Positions 10,708-64,000 of a stretch of DNA of 64,000 nt are shown here, in pieces (position 1 is the stretch's first letter; every line of letters starts with the position of its first letter). The DNA lies in IMG/VR virus record IMGVR_UViG_3300001798_000006, positions 62,001-126,000 of that record. One strand, 5' to 3'. A program made the translations under genes and the position numbers. Below the pieces are notes generated by a model. That model saw only the letters and a program-made list of their open reading frames with translations, was not told the DNA's origin and did no database searches. The DNA is from a virus.

Positions 10708-11742
10708 ATGTTAAAGAAATATGCTCCAGAAGCGGTTCAGGCTCTTAAGGCAACTGCCGCAAGCGATCCAATGATTCGTGATAATGCACAGCGTTCGTTT
10801 GCTGCTGCACTTAATAGCCCACTTCGTCAGGGTGTATTCGATAGAGATAACCTTGGTAACATCTTCGAGCGTCAAGTCCTTGCTCCTGGTGCTCAAGCTA
10901 ATTATCCTCTCGATTTTATTAAACCTGGCGAGGAACAGAATTACATTGCATTTACAATGCCGAAACAGGGTAGTATTCCAGAGCGTCATGTCGAAGGTGA
11001 CGAGCTTTGGGTACCTACTTTCCGTATTGCGAATTCAATTGATTGGGATATTCGTTATGCAGAGGAGGCTCGCTTTGATGTAATTATGCGAGCGGTTAGA
11101 GTTTACGAAGCTGGCTTTGTTCGTAAAATTAACTCAGACGGTTGGCGTACTATTCTTGGTGCGGCCGATGCTCGTGGACTTATTATCACGGCTCTTGGTG
11201 CGGCTCCATTCACAGGTAGTACATTAACTCCGACCCCTGCTGCTGGTCAATTTACCAAGGAACTTATCTCTCGTATGCGTACAGCTATGGTGCGTGCTGC
11301 GGGCGGTAACGGTAACTCTGGTAGACTAACTGATGTTTATCTTTCTTTGGAAGCAATGGAAGATATTCGAGCGTGGGATGTCGATGAAATTGATGAATTT
11401 ACTCGTCGGGAAATTTTCGTGTCCCGCGAATATGGACTTGCTAGTATTTATGGCGTTGTACTTCACGAAATGACTGAGTTTGGTGAAGGCCAGGAATATG
11501 AGGCTTTCCTTACTGATGTTCTTGGACGATCACACCAGACGATTGGTGATACCACGTTGCAAGAGTTCTGTATTGGGCTTGATTTAAGCACGATGGACTC
11601 GTTTGTTTCGCCGATTCGAAAAGAACTCGAAACTTTTGAAGATCCAACACTTTATAGACAAAGCCGAGCCGGTATTTATGGTACGATGGAACACGGCTAT
11701 GCGGTCTTAGATTCTCGCAGAGTCGTATTAGGCGAGTTCTAA
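10708..11742 (+). CDS. Major capsid protein (HK97-like fold)
   Basis: The 344-residue protein directly follows the decoration gene, has a strong AAAGGAGAACAAAC ribosome site and is followed by a clear intrinsic terminator, as expected for the most abundant virion protein. The layout fits the HK97 fold: a helical N-arm (about 1-60), an extended loop (NYPLDFIKPGEEQNYIAF), the RIANSIDWDIRYAEEARFDVI helix of the P domain, and a C-terminal A domain with LSLEAMEDIRAW and EYGLASIYGVVLHE. No long N-terminal delta domain is present, in keeping with a separate scaffold. Identification is mainly by size, context and fold pattern. Confidence 0.85.
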   Translation: MLKKYAPEAVQALKATAASDPMIRDNAQRSFAAALNSPLRQGVFDRDNLGNIFERQVLAPGAQANYPLDFIKPGEEQNYIAFTMPKQGSIPERHVEGDELWVPTFRIANSIDWDIRYAEEARFDVIMRAVRVYEAGFVRKINSDGWRTILGAADARGLIITALGAAPFTGSTLTPTPAAGQFTKELISRMRTAMVRAAGGNGNSGRLTDVYLSLEAMEDIRAWDVDEIDEFTRREIFVSREYGLASIYGVVLHEMTEFGEGQEYEAFLTDVLGRSHQTIGDTTLQEFCIGLDLSTMDSFVSPIRKELETFEDPTLYRQSRAGIYGTMEHGYAVLDSRRVVLGEF

Positions 11743-11770
11743 GCAAATACTGACGCTTCAACAACTTACA

Positions 11771-11801
11771 ATTGGCGGCCCTAAAAAGCCGCCAATTTTT
11801 A
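11771..11801 (+). terminator. Intrinsic terminator after the capsid gene
   Basis: A nine-base perfect stem, ATTGGCGGC at 11771-11779 with GCCGCCAAT at 11788-11796, encloses an eight-base loop and is followed by TTTTATATT. It closes the head transcription unit 28 bases after the capsid stop codon. Confidence 0.9.
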
Positions 11802-11840
11802 TATTATTAATATGCGAAAAAGAACATACGAAAGATAAAA

Positions 11841-12143
11841 ATGATCGAACAAGCTAGTAATATGGGGTCAGTAAATTCCTTAGTTGTACACCCACAAAAG
11901 CCATTCGATGGCGACGTTGTAACAATTATAGGCAAAACCACATATTGTGGCACTTTAGTAGTTACTATAAAAGGGCACAACGGAGCTAATATTCCATTTG
12001 AAATACAATGTATAGATGGTGTATTCAATATATTGTTTAAATGTCCTGATTATAACGTACCTAATTATCAAATTATGGTAACATTTAAGCAGCCAGACCA
12101 GTCTATATCTACTAAGACTATTCCAGTACGTAAACGGAATTAG
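11841..12143 (+). CDS. Small beta-rich protein, possibly Ig-like (100 aa)
   Basis: The 100-residue protein starts at an ATG with a weak ACGAAAGAT ribosome site and has alternating strands: NSLVVHPQKPFDGDVVTIIGKT, GTLVVTIKGHNG, FEIQCIDGVFNILFKCPD and YQIMVTFKQPDQS. Seven or so strands with GDVVTI and YQIMVTF resemble a bacterial Ig-like or FN3-like sandwich, as often decorates phage heads and tails. It stands alone between the capsid terminator and candidate promoter site 4, which overlaps its stop codon. Its promoter was not identified. The fold call is by pattern only. Confidence 0.5.
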   Translation: MIEQASNMGSVNSLVVHPQKPFDGDVVTIIGKTTYCGTLVVTIKGHNGANIPFEIQCIDGVFNILFKCPDYNVPNYQIMVTFKQPDQSISTKTIPVRKRN

Positions 12144-28071: not shown

Positions 28072-28635
28072 ATGGTTTCGATCCCCGTTTGGCAGTGGAT
28101 TCAACAAGACCCTGCTATAAATCCATCTGGACATAGACATGAAGCAGATCCAAGCTTCGGCTTTATAAAGTTATTAAATACGGCCGCTGGTGGTAGTCTT
28201 GATTTTGGATCAATTAATACTACTGTGTCTGGTGCTATTAGTCCTACCAGATGTATATATGGGAGAGTTGCATCTTACGGAGACGCATCTGGCATATTTA
28301 ATCTCAGATTCTTCCTCAGAAATATCTCGGCGTGGGGAGAGGGTACTTATAGATTCTTAGAAAAGAAGAGTTTTGACTTTATACCTAATTTTCAACTTAC
28401 GCTTGGAGATACACCAGATACGCCAACTTCGTTGCCTACTGCTCAAAATCTTAAATCGACTCGACAATTCCCAGAATTTCAGTTCGGTAATAACGTACTA
28501 AGCGGAGTATTAGACGTAGATTCCTCTCAATATATTTATCTCGCGGTATATGCCGATAACGATGTCCCTGTCGGACAACGAGGAGGAGCGGCTGGCAATT
28601 CATTTCGCCAAACCGTTGTTTATGATTTTTCATAA
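28072..28635 (+). CDS. Tail appendage protein A (187 aa)
   Basis: The ATG has AAAGGATAAAATT upstream. The 187-residue protein is rich in Gly, Ser and Phe with short strands (SFGFIKLLNTAAGGSLDFG, GIFNLRFFLRNISAWGEG) and ends DSSQYIYLAVYADNDVP. It resembles the protein at 29272 in layout: a shared NLR-x-FL-x-N-x-SA segment and the SQYIY block near the C-terminus. Both look like small single-domain virion proteins, perhaps tail decorations or tips. Its last 14 bases overlap the methyltransferase-like gene. Confidence 0.5.
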   Translation: MVSIPVWQWIQQDPAINPSGHRHEADPSFGFIKLLNTAAGGSLDFGSINTTVSGAISPTRCIYGRVASYGDASGIFNLRFFLRNISAWGEGTYRFLEKKSFDFIPNFQLTLGDTPDTPTSLPTAQNLKSTRQFPEFQFGNNVLSGVLDVDSSQYIYLAVYADNDVPVGQRGGAAGNSFRQTVVYDFS

Positions 28636-29271: not shown

Positions 29272-29889
29272 ATGGCACTAACACTACCGATTATTGAGTT
29301 TTTCGAGTTTAATACCAGCGAAATAGCCAATCCTGCTGGCACTAGGCATATTCCGGGTGGCTCGTTTGCTTTTAAACAAAGATTATCAACAGGGTGTAAA
29401 AAATCAACCGGCAATACTTCCAGCGGCACATTAGTTTTTGAGAACCTTAATTTTAATGCGGCTTCGCCCACTTCTCATTTGGAGTCTAAAGTAACCGCAG
29501 TAGTTGTCAGAACTGCAACAAGTGGTGTCGCGATTTCTAATTTAAGGTTATTTCTGGGCAATTCTTCGGCATTAAACTATCCGATAGATCAAGGACTAGA
29601 CTCGGCTTTTATTCAGATCGCTCCAAGTGGCACCTGGCAGCCAAATTGTGTATTGCCGTCTGGACAAGGCACTAGATTAAGTGCGATACCAGGGTTATTA
29701 CCAAATATTAAAAGACAAGACGGAGACAATGCGTTAATTGCCAATGATGATGCAAATGTTTCTCAGTATATTTATATGAATCTTGTCATTCCGTATGGAG
29801 GAGCCTTCGGTCAATTTGGAGCCTGTGGGTCCGGCCAGCTACAAATAAAGTTACTTGCGGATTTCTGGGATGATCATTATCGGCTGTAA
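29272..29889 (+). CDS. Tail appendage protein B (205 aa)
   Basis: The 205-residue protein starts two bases after the methyltransferase-like gene, with a weak ribosome site. It has Gly/Ser-rich strands (NPAGTRHIPGGSFAFKQRL, SGVAISNLRLFLGNSSALN) and ends ANVSQYIYMNLVIPYGGAFG and QLQIKLLADFWD. The NLRLFLGNSSA and SQYIYMN blocks match protein A at 28072, so I treat the pair as distant paralogues. It is the last gene before the structured region that starts near 29902. Confidence 0.5.
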   Translation: MALTLPIIEFFEFNTSEIANPAGTRHIPGGSFAFKQRLSTGCKKSTGNTSSGTLVFENLNFNAASPTSHLESKVTAVVVRTATSGVAISNLRLFLGNSSALNYPIDQGLDSAFIQIAPSGTWQPNCVLPSGQGTRLSAIPGLLPNIKRQDGDNALIANDDANVSQYIYMNLVIPYGGAFGQFGACGSGQLQIKLLADFWDDHYRL

Positions 29890-29901
29890 TTACTCAGTCG
29901 T

Positions 29902-30176
29902 TGTGGTCGTACCGACCTTCACTCCTTCGTAATTAGTTATCTAAAGGTAAGCGTCCGCCTGTGAGCGTCCGCAAACGACCGTATTACTGTATATATTAGA
30001 TTTTTCAGGGTCGTTCCTTCGGAACGTCCAGCTATTGGTGAAGGTTCGGCTTACAATTCGTTGCTACACATTGGTAGTTTACGTATTTAAAGCAACGCAA
30101 CCAATTTCCAGCCGAACTGAATATCGGCTCCCGCCGGGGTACTTCGTACCCTAAAGAACAGTAGGTATATACTACA
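29902..30176 (+). ncRNA. Candidate structured noncoding RNA with pseudoknot potential
   Basis: This is most of the only gene-free stretch above 300 bases (29890-30362). It holds no plausible open frame but many pairable segments: 29902-29910 with 29975-29983 (two G-U pairs); GCGTCCGC at 29951 and 29965, a hairpin with a TC/TC internal loop; the hairpin 30009-30029 with loop TTC; 30044-30051 with 30110-30117 (GTTCGGCT/AGCCGAAC); 30059-30065 with 30091-30097 (CGTTGCT/AGCAACG); 30070-30075 with 30100-30105 (ATTGGT/ACCAAT), crossing the former; the hairpin 30137-30151, again loop TTC; and 30161-30164 with 30172-30175. The rest to 30313 is AT-rich with a GGG-TTTT-CCC hairpin. It could be a free RNA, a 3' UTR or a leader. 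No known family was recognised. Confidence 0.55.
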
Positions 30177-30194
30177 CCAAATTTAAGTGGTTCA

Positions 30195-30214
30195 TTTGTA
30201 ACAAGTTTGTAACA
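30195..30214 (+). repeat. Tandem TTTGTAACA repeat
   Basis: TTTGTAACA occurs at 30195-30203 and 30206-30214, so the copies are 11 bases apart, about one helical turn. They lie 100 bases upstream of candidate promoter site 6. A protein-binding site is possible; chance in AT-rich DNA is not excluded. Confidence 0.4.
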
Positions 30215-30313
30215 TTTTTAATCTATTTTTCAAGTCCAAGCGGCATTTATAGTTAATTAACTAAGGGTTTTCCCTAATACCACAGATTTTTCCATAATCG
30301 TTAATTTTAACCA

Positions 30314-30324
30314 TTAGTGTACTT
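30314..30324 (+). promoter_or_regulatory. Candidate late promoter, site 6
   Basis: ATTAGTGTACT lies 38 bases before the small gene at 30363, which has a strong AAAGGAGATAATT ribosome site. With the hairpin at 30557 it would define a short monocistronic transcript. The motif matches five other sites. The role is inferred. Confidence 0.5.
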
Positions 30325-30362
30325 AATTTTAACAGCTTATCTTTTCTAGAAAGGAGATAATT

Positions 30363-30548
30363 ATGGCAACAATTAACTTCGTAGGTAGCACAAATAATGT
30401 CAACCAAGTTGAGTGGTCATACTCTACTAAGATCGTATTTTTAACTGACCGTCCTGCCGGATCTTTCAATCTTCATGATGAAATAGCCGCAGACAATAAC
30501 TTGGGCGTTGGCGTTACCACAACCAATCCATTTACTAATCTGTCATAA
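30363..30548 (+). CDS. Small, probably abundant protein (61 aa)
   Basis: The 61-residue protein has a near-ideal ribosome site (AAAGGAG), a candidate late promoter 38 bases upstream and a strong GC-rich hairpin right after its stop. This is the layout of a highly expressed single-gene unit. The sequence (INFVGSTNNVNQVEWSYSTKIVFLT, then SFNLHDEIAADNN) suggests a small beta domain. No motif, signal or membrane segment is seen. A cement or small virion protein would fit. The adjoining structured RNA lies upstream of the presumed transcription start. Confidence 0.6.
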   Translation: MATINFVGSTNNVNQVEWSYSTKIVFLTDRPAGSFNLHDEIAADNNLGVGVTTTNPFTNLS

Positions 30549-60664: not shown

Positions 60665-61023
60665 TGGCTGATTTTGCAACAATAAGTTTTTGTGGTCGTA
60701 TTACGGATGATATTAAATTCTTTGATATAAAGGACTCTAAGATGGCTAAATTTGGGGTTGCTCTTAATTTATATACCCCAAAGGGTGAAAAAACAATTTT
60801 TAAAGATGTTGTTGTATTTGGTCCACAGGTTAAGTATTTAACTATGGTGCAGGAGAAAGGTTCACCAAAAGGTGCCACGGTATTTATTTCTGGGACAGTA
60901 GAAGTTGATTCTTATAAGGACAAAGATAAAGAAATTGTACGTGCCACGTCTATCCAGGTACTTGGGAAGAGACCAAAACAAACCGAAGTTCCAGAAGAGA
61001 CTGGCAACGGATTACCATTTTAA
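60664..61023 (+). CDS. ssb: Single-stranded DNA-binding protein
   Basis: The 119-residue protein has an AAGGAGGAAGTA ribosome site. Its OB-fold is typical of SSB: FATISFCGRITDDIKFFDI, KMAKFGVALNLYTPKG, TIFKDVVVFGPQVKYLTMV, KGATVFISGTVEVDSYKDKD. The C-terminus ends EETGNGLPF, a short variant of the acidic DDDIPF tip that recruits partner proteins. It protects single-stranded DNA at the fork and partners the RecA-like protein. The gene lies between polymerase and sigma-factor genes. Confidence 0.9.
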   Translation: MADFATISFCGRITDDIKFFDIKDSKMAKFGVALNLYTPKGEKTIFKDVVVFGPQVKYLTMVQEKGSPKGATVFISGTVEVDSYKDKDKEIVRATSIQVLGKRPKQTEVPEETGNGLPF

Positions 61024-61619
61024 TGAAGATACAGGAACTTGAGCCGATCATTAAGAGAATAGCTAATAAAACACATCATATATCACCAGTTATATCTAAG
61101 GAAGATCTAGAACAGGTCGGACGCTTATCTGCCTTCAAGGCTCTTAGGAGTTTTGATCCCACAAAGGGAAAAAGTATTAAATCTTATATATATAAATGTG
61201 TGCAGAGAGCTATTTACGAAGAGGCGTCAAGTTTCTATGGTCCGTATAGATTGCCTCATCGCATTCTAAGACTTTGCTCTAAAATTAATACACTCGCCGG
61301 AGTAGAAGCCTCCGGCGAGGAAATATCTTCGATTTTAAATGCCGAGAAATCACCTATTAAAAAGACGACACCTGATACAGTCAGGAAACTAAAGGTGCTA
61401 TATCGTGGCGTTGCGAGCGATAGTGATTGTTTATGCAGCAATGACGATCACTTTTTACAAGAGATTACCGTTTCAGAACTAGAACGCAATATATTATATT
61501 ATCGGTATATTCATAATTACTCTTTAAAGGAAACTAGTCAAATTTTAGGGATTTCTATCGGTAGATTAAGAGGATTGGAAGCAATTTTGAAGGGACGGAT
61601 AAGGGATTTATATGAGTAA
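61023..61619 (+). CDS. Phage RNA polymerase sigma factor
   Basis: The 198-residue protein has a region-2-like part (SKEDLEQVGRLSAFKALRSFDPTKGKSIKSYIYKCVQRAI, about 25-66) and a region-4 helix-turn-helix at the C-terminus (SELERNILYYRYIHNYSLKETSQILGIS, then GRLRGLEAILKGRI). No region 1 or 3 is seen, so it is a compact, ECF-like or phage-late-type factor, as with T4 gp55 or SPO1 gp28. It probably redirects host RNA polymerase to phage late promoters; the ATTAGTGTA motif is the natural candidate target. The gene is coupled to SSB by TAATG. Confidence 0.8.
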   Translation: MKIQELEPIIKRIANKTHHISPVISKEDLEQVGRLSAFKALRSFDPTKGKSIKSYIYKCVQRAIYEEASSFYGPYRLPHRILRLCSKINTLAGVEASGEEISSILNAEKSPIKKTTPDTVRKLKVLYRGVASDSDCLCSNDDHFLQEITVSELERNILYYRYIHNYSLKETSQILGISIGRLRGLEAILKGRIRDLYE

Positions 61620-64000
61620 GAAGAGAATACTTTTTTGTGGGGAAGCTAGTTTTCTATCTACGGGCTTTAGTACCTACTATAGGGAACTATTGCCAAGATT
61701 AGCCGTGACTGGGAAGTACGATATTTTTGAGCATGGATCATACGCTCGCCAAGATCACCCCGAAGTGAATAACTTTATCAAGGGGCGTTGGAAATTTTAT
61801 GGGAATTTACCCTTAACAGAGGAAGAGGCTAAGGCTTATAATCAACCTTCGGCAGATCCAAAAGATAAGGGTCAGAATATTTCCCAATTTGGAGCTTACA
61901 AATTTGATGGTGTAGTTGCGGATTGTAAGCCAGATATATGTATAGATATCAGGGATAATTGGATGTTACGCTGGCAGTTAAGTAGTGTTTTCAGACCATG
62001 GATTAAACTCGTTTGGATGCCCACCGTAGACAGTCTGCCTCAGCATGAGGATTGGATTAAAGACTATGAACAGGCTGATCTTATAGTTGCATACGCAGAT
62101 TTTGGCGTACATACTTTAAAGCAGCAGAGTCCGTTAATGCGTGTATTCCCTAAAGCTATGCGTCCTGGCGTAGACTTAAAAACTTTTTATCCAATGGATA
62201 GAGATCAGATCAGGGAAGAGTTTTGTATTGCGAAGGATGTGCCAATTATTGGCAGCCTGATGCGTAACCAATCTCGTAAACTTTATCCAGATCTTATTGA
62301 TGCTTTCGCACGTATGAAAAATAAGTATAAAGGCGAAAAGGCTGTCGATAAAGCTATTTTGTTGCTACATAGTGCGTGGCCAGATAATGTTTATTCTTAT
62401 GATTATCCACGCCACGTTATGAGGCTACAAGCATATCCATGGCTTGCTAATTATTCCAAGGGTATTAAAGACAGCGTAATGCAAACGCTTATGTGCCATA
62501 ACCCGGCCTGTGGGAAGAAGTCACTTGCTTATGCTATTAATTTATATAATAAACCACTCCGTAATGGAGTGATATTGTTGCCGTGCATGTGGTGTGGGCA
62601 GCAGACCGCTACCTGTCCAACAACAGGGGTAGGATTTAGTCGCGAGGAGCTTGCTAAAGTATATAATTTATTGGACTTATATGTTCAATGTTCTATATGT
62701 TTTACGCCTGATACCCCGGTATTAACTGGTGAAGGTTGGAAAAATATCTGCGATATTCGAGAGGGCGAACAGGTCTTTGGTAAAGATGGTCAATTGCATC
62801 ATGTTTATAAAACTATGAAGAATAAGACTGATTCGCTGGTAGAAGTTAAGTTGCATGGTAATGCATGGTCTAATAAATGTACTCCAAACCACCCGTTTTT
62901 GGTTGTTAAAGACGCATGGCCCGATAACAAAAATTCTTTACGAGAAAAGATTGGACAGAAAAATCCTGAACGATTAGATTTTGAATATAAAGACGCTGGC
63001 GATTTACAGCCAGATGATATGGTTGTTCAGACTATTCCTATGAAGTCAACCAAGCCAGAAATTAAATTAGATGATGGTACTCCAATTATTTTTGATGAAC
63101 ATTTCGCTTGGTTTTTGGGCGTAATGGTTGGAGACGGTAATGTAAATATTAATGATACGACAGCATATTGCAGAGTAACATGTGCGTCAGATGACGCAAC
63201 AGCTTTTCAGAAGATAAATTTGATAGCCAAAAGATTAAATCACGAAGCAAAAATTAGACAATATATTGATCGGAAAGCTTTTGATGTTAATATTAATGAT
63301 AAACGATTAGCTATTTTACTTAGAAAAGAACTATATCATGATAACGGATATAAAAAGAGTCCGTTTAATTTTATATTATGGCCTCCTGATTTGCAACTAG
63401 CTTTTATTAATGGATTAATACATGCTGACGGTCACGTAATTGACGAAAAAGTAAATGGGTTTACTAATACGTCTCCATACGTTGCCAGGGATTTATATAT
63501 TGCTCTGCAAAAACTTGGTTTATATTTTAATTGTCACATGCAATATCCAGAGAACAAAAAGCCTCGTTATAGGTTTGAAATTAATTTTTCTGGTAAAAAA
63601 TCATCTACTTCTTCTCTTTATTGGAAGCAAGACGGTGTAAATTATATGTTATCGAAAGTGAAATCTATAACTAATATTGATTACAATGATTATGTCTATA
63701 ATATAGACGTTGCTGATGATCATAATTATATTATATGTGGGCATTCCGTCCACAACTGTGAGGGAGATGGAATGCCCGTCCAAGAGGCTAAAGCCTGTGG
63801 TAAACCAACTCTTGTAATGGATTATTCCGCCATGCGTGAGAAGGGGCGATTCCCCAAAGAATATTCACATTTTAAGCAACTCGGAATTACTGAGGATAGC
63901 TATTCGTGCCACAAAGGTGGTGACGTTATTGATGTTGGTCGCTATTATTATGAACCTGAAACCTCGTGTATGCGGGCTCTGCCCGATATTGATGATTTAG
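61612..64000 (+). CDS. Intein-containing GT4-like glycosyltransferase, 3'-truncated
   Basis: The ATG at 61612 overlaps the sigma-factor stop and the frame stays open to the window end (796 codons). The host protein is a GT-B glycosyltransferase: KRILFCGEASFLSTGFSTYY at the N-terminus, then GSLMRNQSRKLYPDLIDAF. A cysteine knuckle (CHNPAC near 295 and CMWC near 325) is inserted, and the donor motif follows as EGDGMPVQEAKACGKP. That motif is split from LYVQCSI by an intein of 353 residues, from Cys 363 to Asn 715, with Cys 716 following. After splicing the catalytic motif is restored as CSICEGDGMPVQEA. Acceptor and sugar are unknown. The gene's 3' end lies outside the window. Confidence 0.85.
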   Translation, partial: MSKKRILFCGEASFLSTGFSTYYRELLPRLAVTGKYDIFEHGSYARQDHPEVNNFIKGRWKFYGNLPLTEEEAKAYNQPSADPKDKGQNISQFGAYKFDGVVADCKPDICIDIRDNWMLRWQLSSVFRPWIKLVWMPTVDSLPQHEDWIKDYEQADLIVAYADFGVHTLKQQSPLMRVFPKAMRPGVDLKTFYPMDRDQIREEFCIAKDVPIIGSLMRNQSRKLYPDLIDAFARMKNKYKGEKAVDKAILLLHSAWPDNVYSYDYPRHVMRLQAYPWLANYSKGIKDSVMQTLMCHNPACGKKSLAYAINLYNKPLRNGVILLPCMWCGQQTATCPTTGVGFSREELAKVYNLLDLYVQCSICFTPDTPVLTGEGWKNICDIREGEQVFGKDGQLHHVYKTMKNKTDSLVEVKLHGNAWSNKCTPNHPFLVVKDAWPDNKNSLREKIGQKNPERLDFEYKDAGDLQPDDMVVQTIPMKSTKPEIKLDDGTPIIFDEHFAWFLGVMVGDGNVNINDTTAYCRVTCASDDATAFQKINLIAKRLNHEAKIRQYIDRKAFDVNINDKRLAILLRKELYHDNGYKKSPFNFILWPPDLQLAFINGLIHADGHVIDEKVNGFTNTSPYVARDLYIALQKLGLYFNCHMQYPENKKPRYRFEINFSGKKSSTSSLYWKQDGVNYMLSKVKSITNIDYNDYVYNIDVADDHNYIICGHSVHNCEGDGMPVQEAKACGKPTLVMDYSAMREKGRFPKEYSHFKQLGITEDSYSCHKGGDVIDVGRYYYEPETSCMRALPDIDDL
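62698..63756 (+). mobile_element. Intein with LAGLIDADG homing endonuclease
   Basis: The element encodes 353 residues. It starts CFTPDTPVLTGEGW, a standard splicing block A, has CTPNHPFLVV as block B, FLGVMVGDGNV and FINGLIHADGHV as the two LAGLIDADG motifs, and ends YNIDVADDHNYIICGHSVHN followed by the extein cysteine. All four essential splicing residues (Cys 1, block B His, last Asn, Cys +1) are present, so splicing is expected to work. The intein splits the catalytic motif of a glycosyltransferase. Confidence 0.93.

Follow-up and report, generated by a model that had tools for sequence, protein, structure and literature searches.

A noncoding insertion at a phage late-gene junction, probably a transcribed spacer rather than a dedicated structured RNA

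Why would a phage that packs its genes tightly keep a long stretch of DNA without a gene, and could that stretch act as an RNA? The question arises from a 64,000-nucleotide piece of viral DNA (the window), bases 62001-126000 of a 177,274-base uncultivated viral record for which no close relative was found among phage records. An earlier note, made from the sequence alone, had pointed to the window's only long gene-free stretch as a structured RNA candidate with a possible pseudoknot, either a separate RNA or a 3' UTR. The 473 bases (29890-30362) hold no plausible gene, and we found no other long stretch of this kind in the window. A seemingly larger gap at 61620-63454 was rejected because it belongs to an intein-containing ORF that continues beyond the end of the window, and a large structured RNA considered at 61620-62720 was dropped, the region being coding. 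This ORF (61612-64000) is glycosyltransferase-like, and the intein that splits it, at residues about 362-715, includes a LAGLIDADG domain. The placement given in the earlier note also proved right: the stretch lies 3' of a tail-region gene, here called p205 after its 205-aa product, and 5' of a late-promoter-like box, conserved in relatives, that precedes a 61-aa gene, p61 (Table 1).

Table 1. Features in and around the gene-free stretch, in window coordinates.
Feature	Position	Strand	Remarks
p205 (205-aa gene)	29272..29889	+	40-52% identity, kept in all syntenic relatives; insert begins directly after its stop codon
Lineage-specific noncoding insert, ~420 bp, at the p205/p61 junction	29890..30313	unassigned (.)	comparison with relatives; no homolog
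5' domain, closing helix GTCGTTGTGG / CCGCAAACGAC (10 bp, one bulge, one G-U)	29897..29979	+	MFE prediction only
Hairpin GGTCG-TAC-CGACC	29905..29917	+	competes with the 5' domain helix
Helix ACCTTCAC / GTGAAGGT	29915-29922 / 30038-30045		
TTACTGTATA, degenerate match to TTAGTGTAWT (core TTAGTGTA, one mismatch)	29984..29993	+	possible decayed promoter copy; post hoc
Hairpin GGTCGTTCC-TTC-GGAACGTCC	30009..30029	+	includes CGTTCC-TTC-GGAACG, 30012-30026
Long imperfect hairpin GTTCGGCT...AGCCGAAC	30044..30117	+	contains both helices of the crossing pair
Helix GTTCGGCT / AGCCGAAC	30044-30051 / 30110-30117		
Helix CGTTGCT / AGCAACG	30059-30065 / 30091-30097		
Crossing helix ATTGGT / ACCAAT	30070-30075 / 30100-30105		
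Hairpin GGGTAC-TTC-GTACCC	30137..30151	+	
3' part of insert, A+T-rich, weakly structured	30177..30313	unassigned (.)	
Late-promoter-like box TTAGTGTACT of the 61-aa gene	30314..30323	+	same box at window 6686, 8409, 12140, 16789
p61 (61-aa gene)	30363..30548	+	48-61% identity, kept in all syntenic relatives

To place the stretch, we compared the junction between these two genes across related viruses. Searching viral contigs with the upstream 503-aa protein, we obtained 22 syntenic loci, to which the 205-aa protein contributed one more, 23 in all; searches with the p61 or p205 protein alone yielded few extra relatives. The gene order p503-p187-p205-p61-p121 is common to these loci, the succession p205, p61, p121 being kept in every one. 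In nearly all relatives the late box TTAGTGTATT follows the p205 stop directly or at a distance of no more than about 30 bases, and it stands 54-79 bases upstream of the p61 start; in the window, 424 bases lie between stop and box. One locus, L025, carries an HNH endonuclease gene at this very junction (11545-12060), and four others (L009, L019, L022 and L024) carry one at the next junction, p61/p121, where it is preceded by the late box and the leader hairpin. Thus, because the p205 stop and the late box (nearly) abut in relatives and L025 has an HNH gene between them, the window stretch is an insert specific to its lineage, in a junction prone to insertions. That it is an insertion is shown by the relatives, in which its flanking genes are adjacent without it. 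Within the window, the 187-aa gene (28072-28635) looks like a distant paralog of the 205-aa gene, whose product is about 20-26% identical to the relatives' 187-aa homologs.

Intergenic insertions at phage gene junctions are typically homing endonuclease genes (compare PMC10448857, on nuclease genes at boundaries of genetic exchange). The window insert occupies the same kind of site but encodes no protein. A second noncoding insert, of ~350 bases, follows p61 in L008 (11175-11530); we considered it as a homolog of the window insert and rejected it, the two being unrelated. It resembles intergenic regions elsewhere in G003, G004 and G005 (71-93% identity), which lie between divergent genes in G003 and G005, and it is apparently a displaced copy of such an early intergenic region.

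How, then, would the insert be transcribed? The box TTAGTGTAWT recurs before late genes of the window (positions in Table 1) and many times in L002-L025, and window 61023-61619 encodes a sigma-factor-like protein; because of this recurrence and this gene, the box is very probably a late promoter. Within the stretch itself we found neither an intrinsic terminator nor a sigma-70-like (host-type) promoter above chance, and because neither signal was found a 3' UTR reading fits. Of the two readings in the earlier note, it is the 3' UTR that agrees with the data, whereas a dedicated pseudoknotted RNA is not supported, given the lack of an Rfam family or a homolog and a folding that is typical of the genome. 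We favour, at a probability of roughly 0.6, the reading in which the insert is a spacer without dedicated RNA function, transcribed by read-through as the 3' UTR of the tail genes upstream.

The main rival is a stand-alone structured noncoding RNA of a new class, three-domain and pseudoknotted, ~280 nt long, read from the plus strand and made late in infection, which we regard as unlikely. The pairings behind it are real: every one named in the earlier note sits where it was said to be, including two hairpins with TTC loops (30012-30026 and 30137-30151) and the crossing of ATTGGT/ACCAAT with CGTTGCT/AGCAACG. Helices are dense on the plus strand, and the U-G pair of the 10-bp helix that closes the 5' domain favours that strand. 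The pseudoknot geometry, 7 bp of stem and 6 bp of crossing helix formed between the loop and the bases just outside the stem, arises in 1.0% of shuffles and is present in 36 of 1740 overlapping genome windows (about 2%). The pseudoknot partner is not unique, however, because ACCAAT can pair with either ATTGGT, that in Table 1 or a second one at 30034-30039. Perfect hairpins of at least 6 bp number two in the stretch, and 23% of genome windows have at least two.

For folding stability, the earlier note had named shuffled sequence as a check on the pairing. On the plus strand 29902-30176 is modestly more stable than its dinucleotide shuffles (z = -2.1; 6 of 200 shuffles were as good), but it is ordinary for its own genome. 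We applied the identical fold measure to 505 windows of 275 bases, on both strands, across the whole record; the background z has a mean of -0.8 (sd 1.36), with 14% of windows below -2.1 and 9% below -2.7. Because so many windows score as low, the stretch is not an outlier in its genome, and folding clearly above this whole-record background was found on neither strand. A 275-base window taken anywhere in this genome would, in other words, fold this well relative to shuffles in 9-14% of cases, which calls for caution. The minus strand folds equally well or better, against the stand-alone RNA (for 29890-30200 its z is -2.8, compared with -1.7 for the plus strand). Fold and pairings together exceed chance only weakly.

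Searches for a known class or a homolog do not help the stand-alone RNA either. GOLLD, ROOL and similar large RNA classes were defined by covariation. The earlier note had recognised no GOLLD or ROOL motif, correctly, and the Rfam scan that it suggested matched no family: covariance models for GOLLD, ROOL, the group I intron, tmRNA, RNase P and ribozymes gave no match at gathering score in the window, and 29800-30450 gave nothing credible at a relaxed threshold (E up to 10). ARAGORN found no tRNA or tmRNA in the window. Distant blastn of the insert against phages and plasmids returned nothing credible, and blastn against the complete records of 29 viruses, related or distantly so, returned chance 14-28-mers only. 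Exact k-mers from the insert, four parts in viral contigs and one in bacterial genomes, were chance matches without partner strands or structural context. A single-sequence covariance model of the insert matched itself alone in its own record and nothing in the relatives' records. With no homolog found, in collections that may leave out records very near the window's own, there is no covariation to weigh for a stand-alone RNA, and the stretch offers no promoter or terminator signature of its own. Like GOLLD, ROOL and other large ornate phage or bacterial RNAs (GOLLD, ROOL and OLE structures are described in PMC12286853), the stretch is noncoding, with several hairpins and a possible pseudoknot; it differs in having no Rfam match and no homologs found, and as drawn it is much shorter.

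Thus, a dedicated pseudoknotted structured RNA is not supported by any test run, whether Rfam, homolog searches or fold background. A more specific version, a lineage-specific pseudoknotted phage RNA of ~280 nt that would be a late-expressed, non-protein accessory insert with a role in virion assembly or in the expression of late genes, we consider quite unlikely. Two points nevertheless speak against a mere spacer. It is suggestive that 280 bases hold three hairpins, an imperfect stem of 20 bases and a crossing helix, and the persistence of the stretch despite tight gene packing elsewhere could reflect selection. A functional RNA in the insert is possible but unproven.

In the relatives, covariation appears in the leaders of the neighbouring late genes. 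Where this late box precedes p121 or an HNH gene, the leader has directly after the box a hairpin gaGGCrTAG...CTTAGYCTY, then GGAGNAAGG; we saw it at L002:11190-11251, L005:7197-7264, L018:11151-11216 and 15 other loci. Across 18 sequences 98% of cells pair and 5 of 7 pairs show changes in both partners; the covariation score is 0.62, compared with 0.36 for shuffles and no more than 0.28 for slid controls. Covariation thus supports the p121-type leader as a probable structured 5' UTR in this uncultivated phage group. Leaders of p61 (L002:10866-10944, L009:10886-10948, L025:12063-12128 and others) begin with a hairpin of variable sequence, a 5-bp stem and a 5-base loop, followed in most by the palindrome CGAACGTTCG or a variant. 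All 5 of its pairs vary on both sides in 11 hand-trimmed cases, a figure that is indicative since trimming favours pairing. The window's own p61 leader has neither hairpin nor CGAACGTTCG palindrome. The covarying leader hairpins of these two neighbouring late genes are a better RNA lead than the insert.

A piece of such a leader may lie within the insert. The sequence TTACTGTATA, the degenerate late box at 29984, differs from the consensus at two bases, core position 4 and the last one, and the 13-mer TTTCAGGGTCGTT, just 5' of the 30009-30029 hairpin and running into it, recurs unchanged in the p61 leader of L002, the locus with the highest 503-aa protein identity among the matches listed. A 13-mer shared with any of 21 p61 leaders arose in 0 of 200 shuffles. 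Like the p61 and p121 leader hairpins of the group, the insert hairpin follows a late-box-like sequence; it differs from them in its degenerate box, in a box-to-hairpin spacing of 25 bases, longer than in relatives, and in having no CGAACGTTCG palindrome or start codon after it. The hairpin is possibly a remnant of a p61 leader hairpin, and the likeness, noticed post hoc, is suggestive of a duplicated, decayed p61 late promoter and leader piece at 29984-30029.

Could this piece still work? An extended p61 leader would use a weak late promoter at 29984, with an mRNA from near the 30009-30029 hairpin and a structured 5' UTR of ~330 nt, besides the short transcript from 30314. The degenerate box, the leader-like hairpin downstream and the 13-mer common with L002 all agree with it, as does the build of the relatives' p61 leaders, box then 5'-terminal hairpin. 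We nevertheless hold it to be improbable: the box is off consensus, the spacing exceeds that of the relatives, a better box stands at 30314, and the chance expectations were calculated post hoc.

Nor does the insert look like a decayed gene or short ORF, for instance the remnant of an HNH endonuclease. L025 has such a gene at the same junction, and the insert holds one short open frame of 38 codons (GTG 30038 to TAA 30154), but its six frames have no similarity beyond chance to the relatives' ORFs, PHROGs or Pfam, in which we looked for HNH and other nucleases, and the 38-aa ORF has no phage match; this origin is very unlikely. Slimmest of all are the chances of a DNA-level element (a mobile element end, a palindrome-associated insertion or a protein-binding site), to which the insertion itself, hairpins that fold on both strands, C-GAA-G mini-hairpins on the minus strand and ATTA at both insert edges would lend themselves, but ATTA is trivial in A+T-rich DNA, no second copy was found in the genome or elsewhere, and terminal inverted repeats are absent.

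We therefore return to the spacer and 3' UTR as the preferred reading. A noncoding insertion of ~420 bp separates the p205 stop from the p61 late promoter and would probably be transcribed, by read-through, as the 3' untranslated tail of the tail-gene transcript. Its hairpins, ordinary for this genome, would probably have no dedicated function beyond that of a spacer or 3' UTR. The segment 29984-30029 may derive, somewhat speculatively, from the p61 late promoter and 5'-terminal leader hairpin through duplication or recombination at the junction.

On present evidence, what was inserted between these two late genes of the phage is an ordinary spacer. Should an RNA function prove true, the phage would have acquired a noncoding RNA where homing endonucleases or accessory genes usually settle. 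For questions of late translation or of mRNA stability in this group, the covarying leader hairpins after the late promoters are the more tractable lead.
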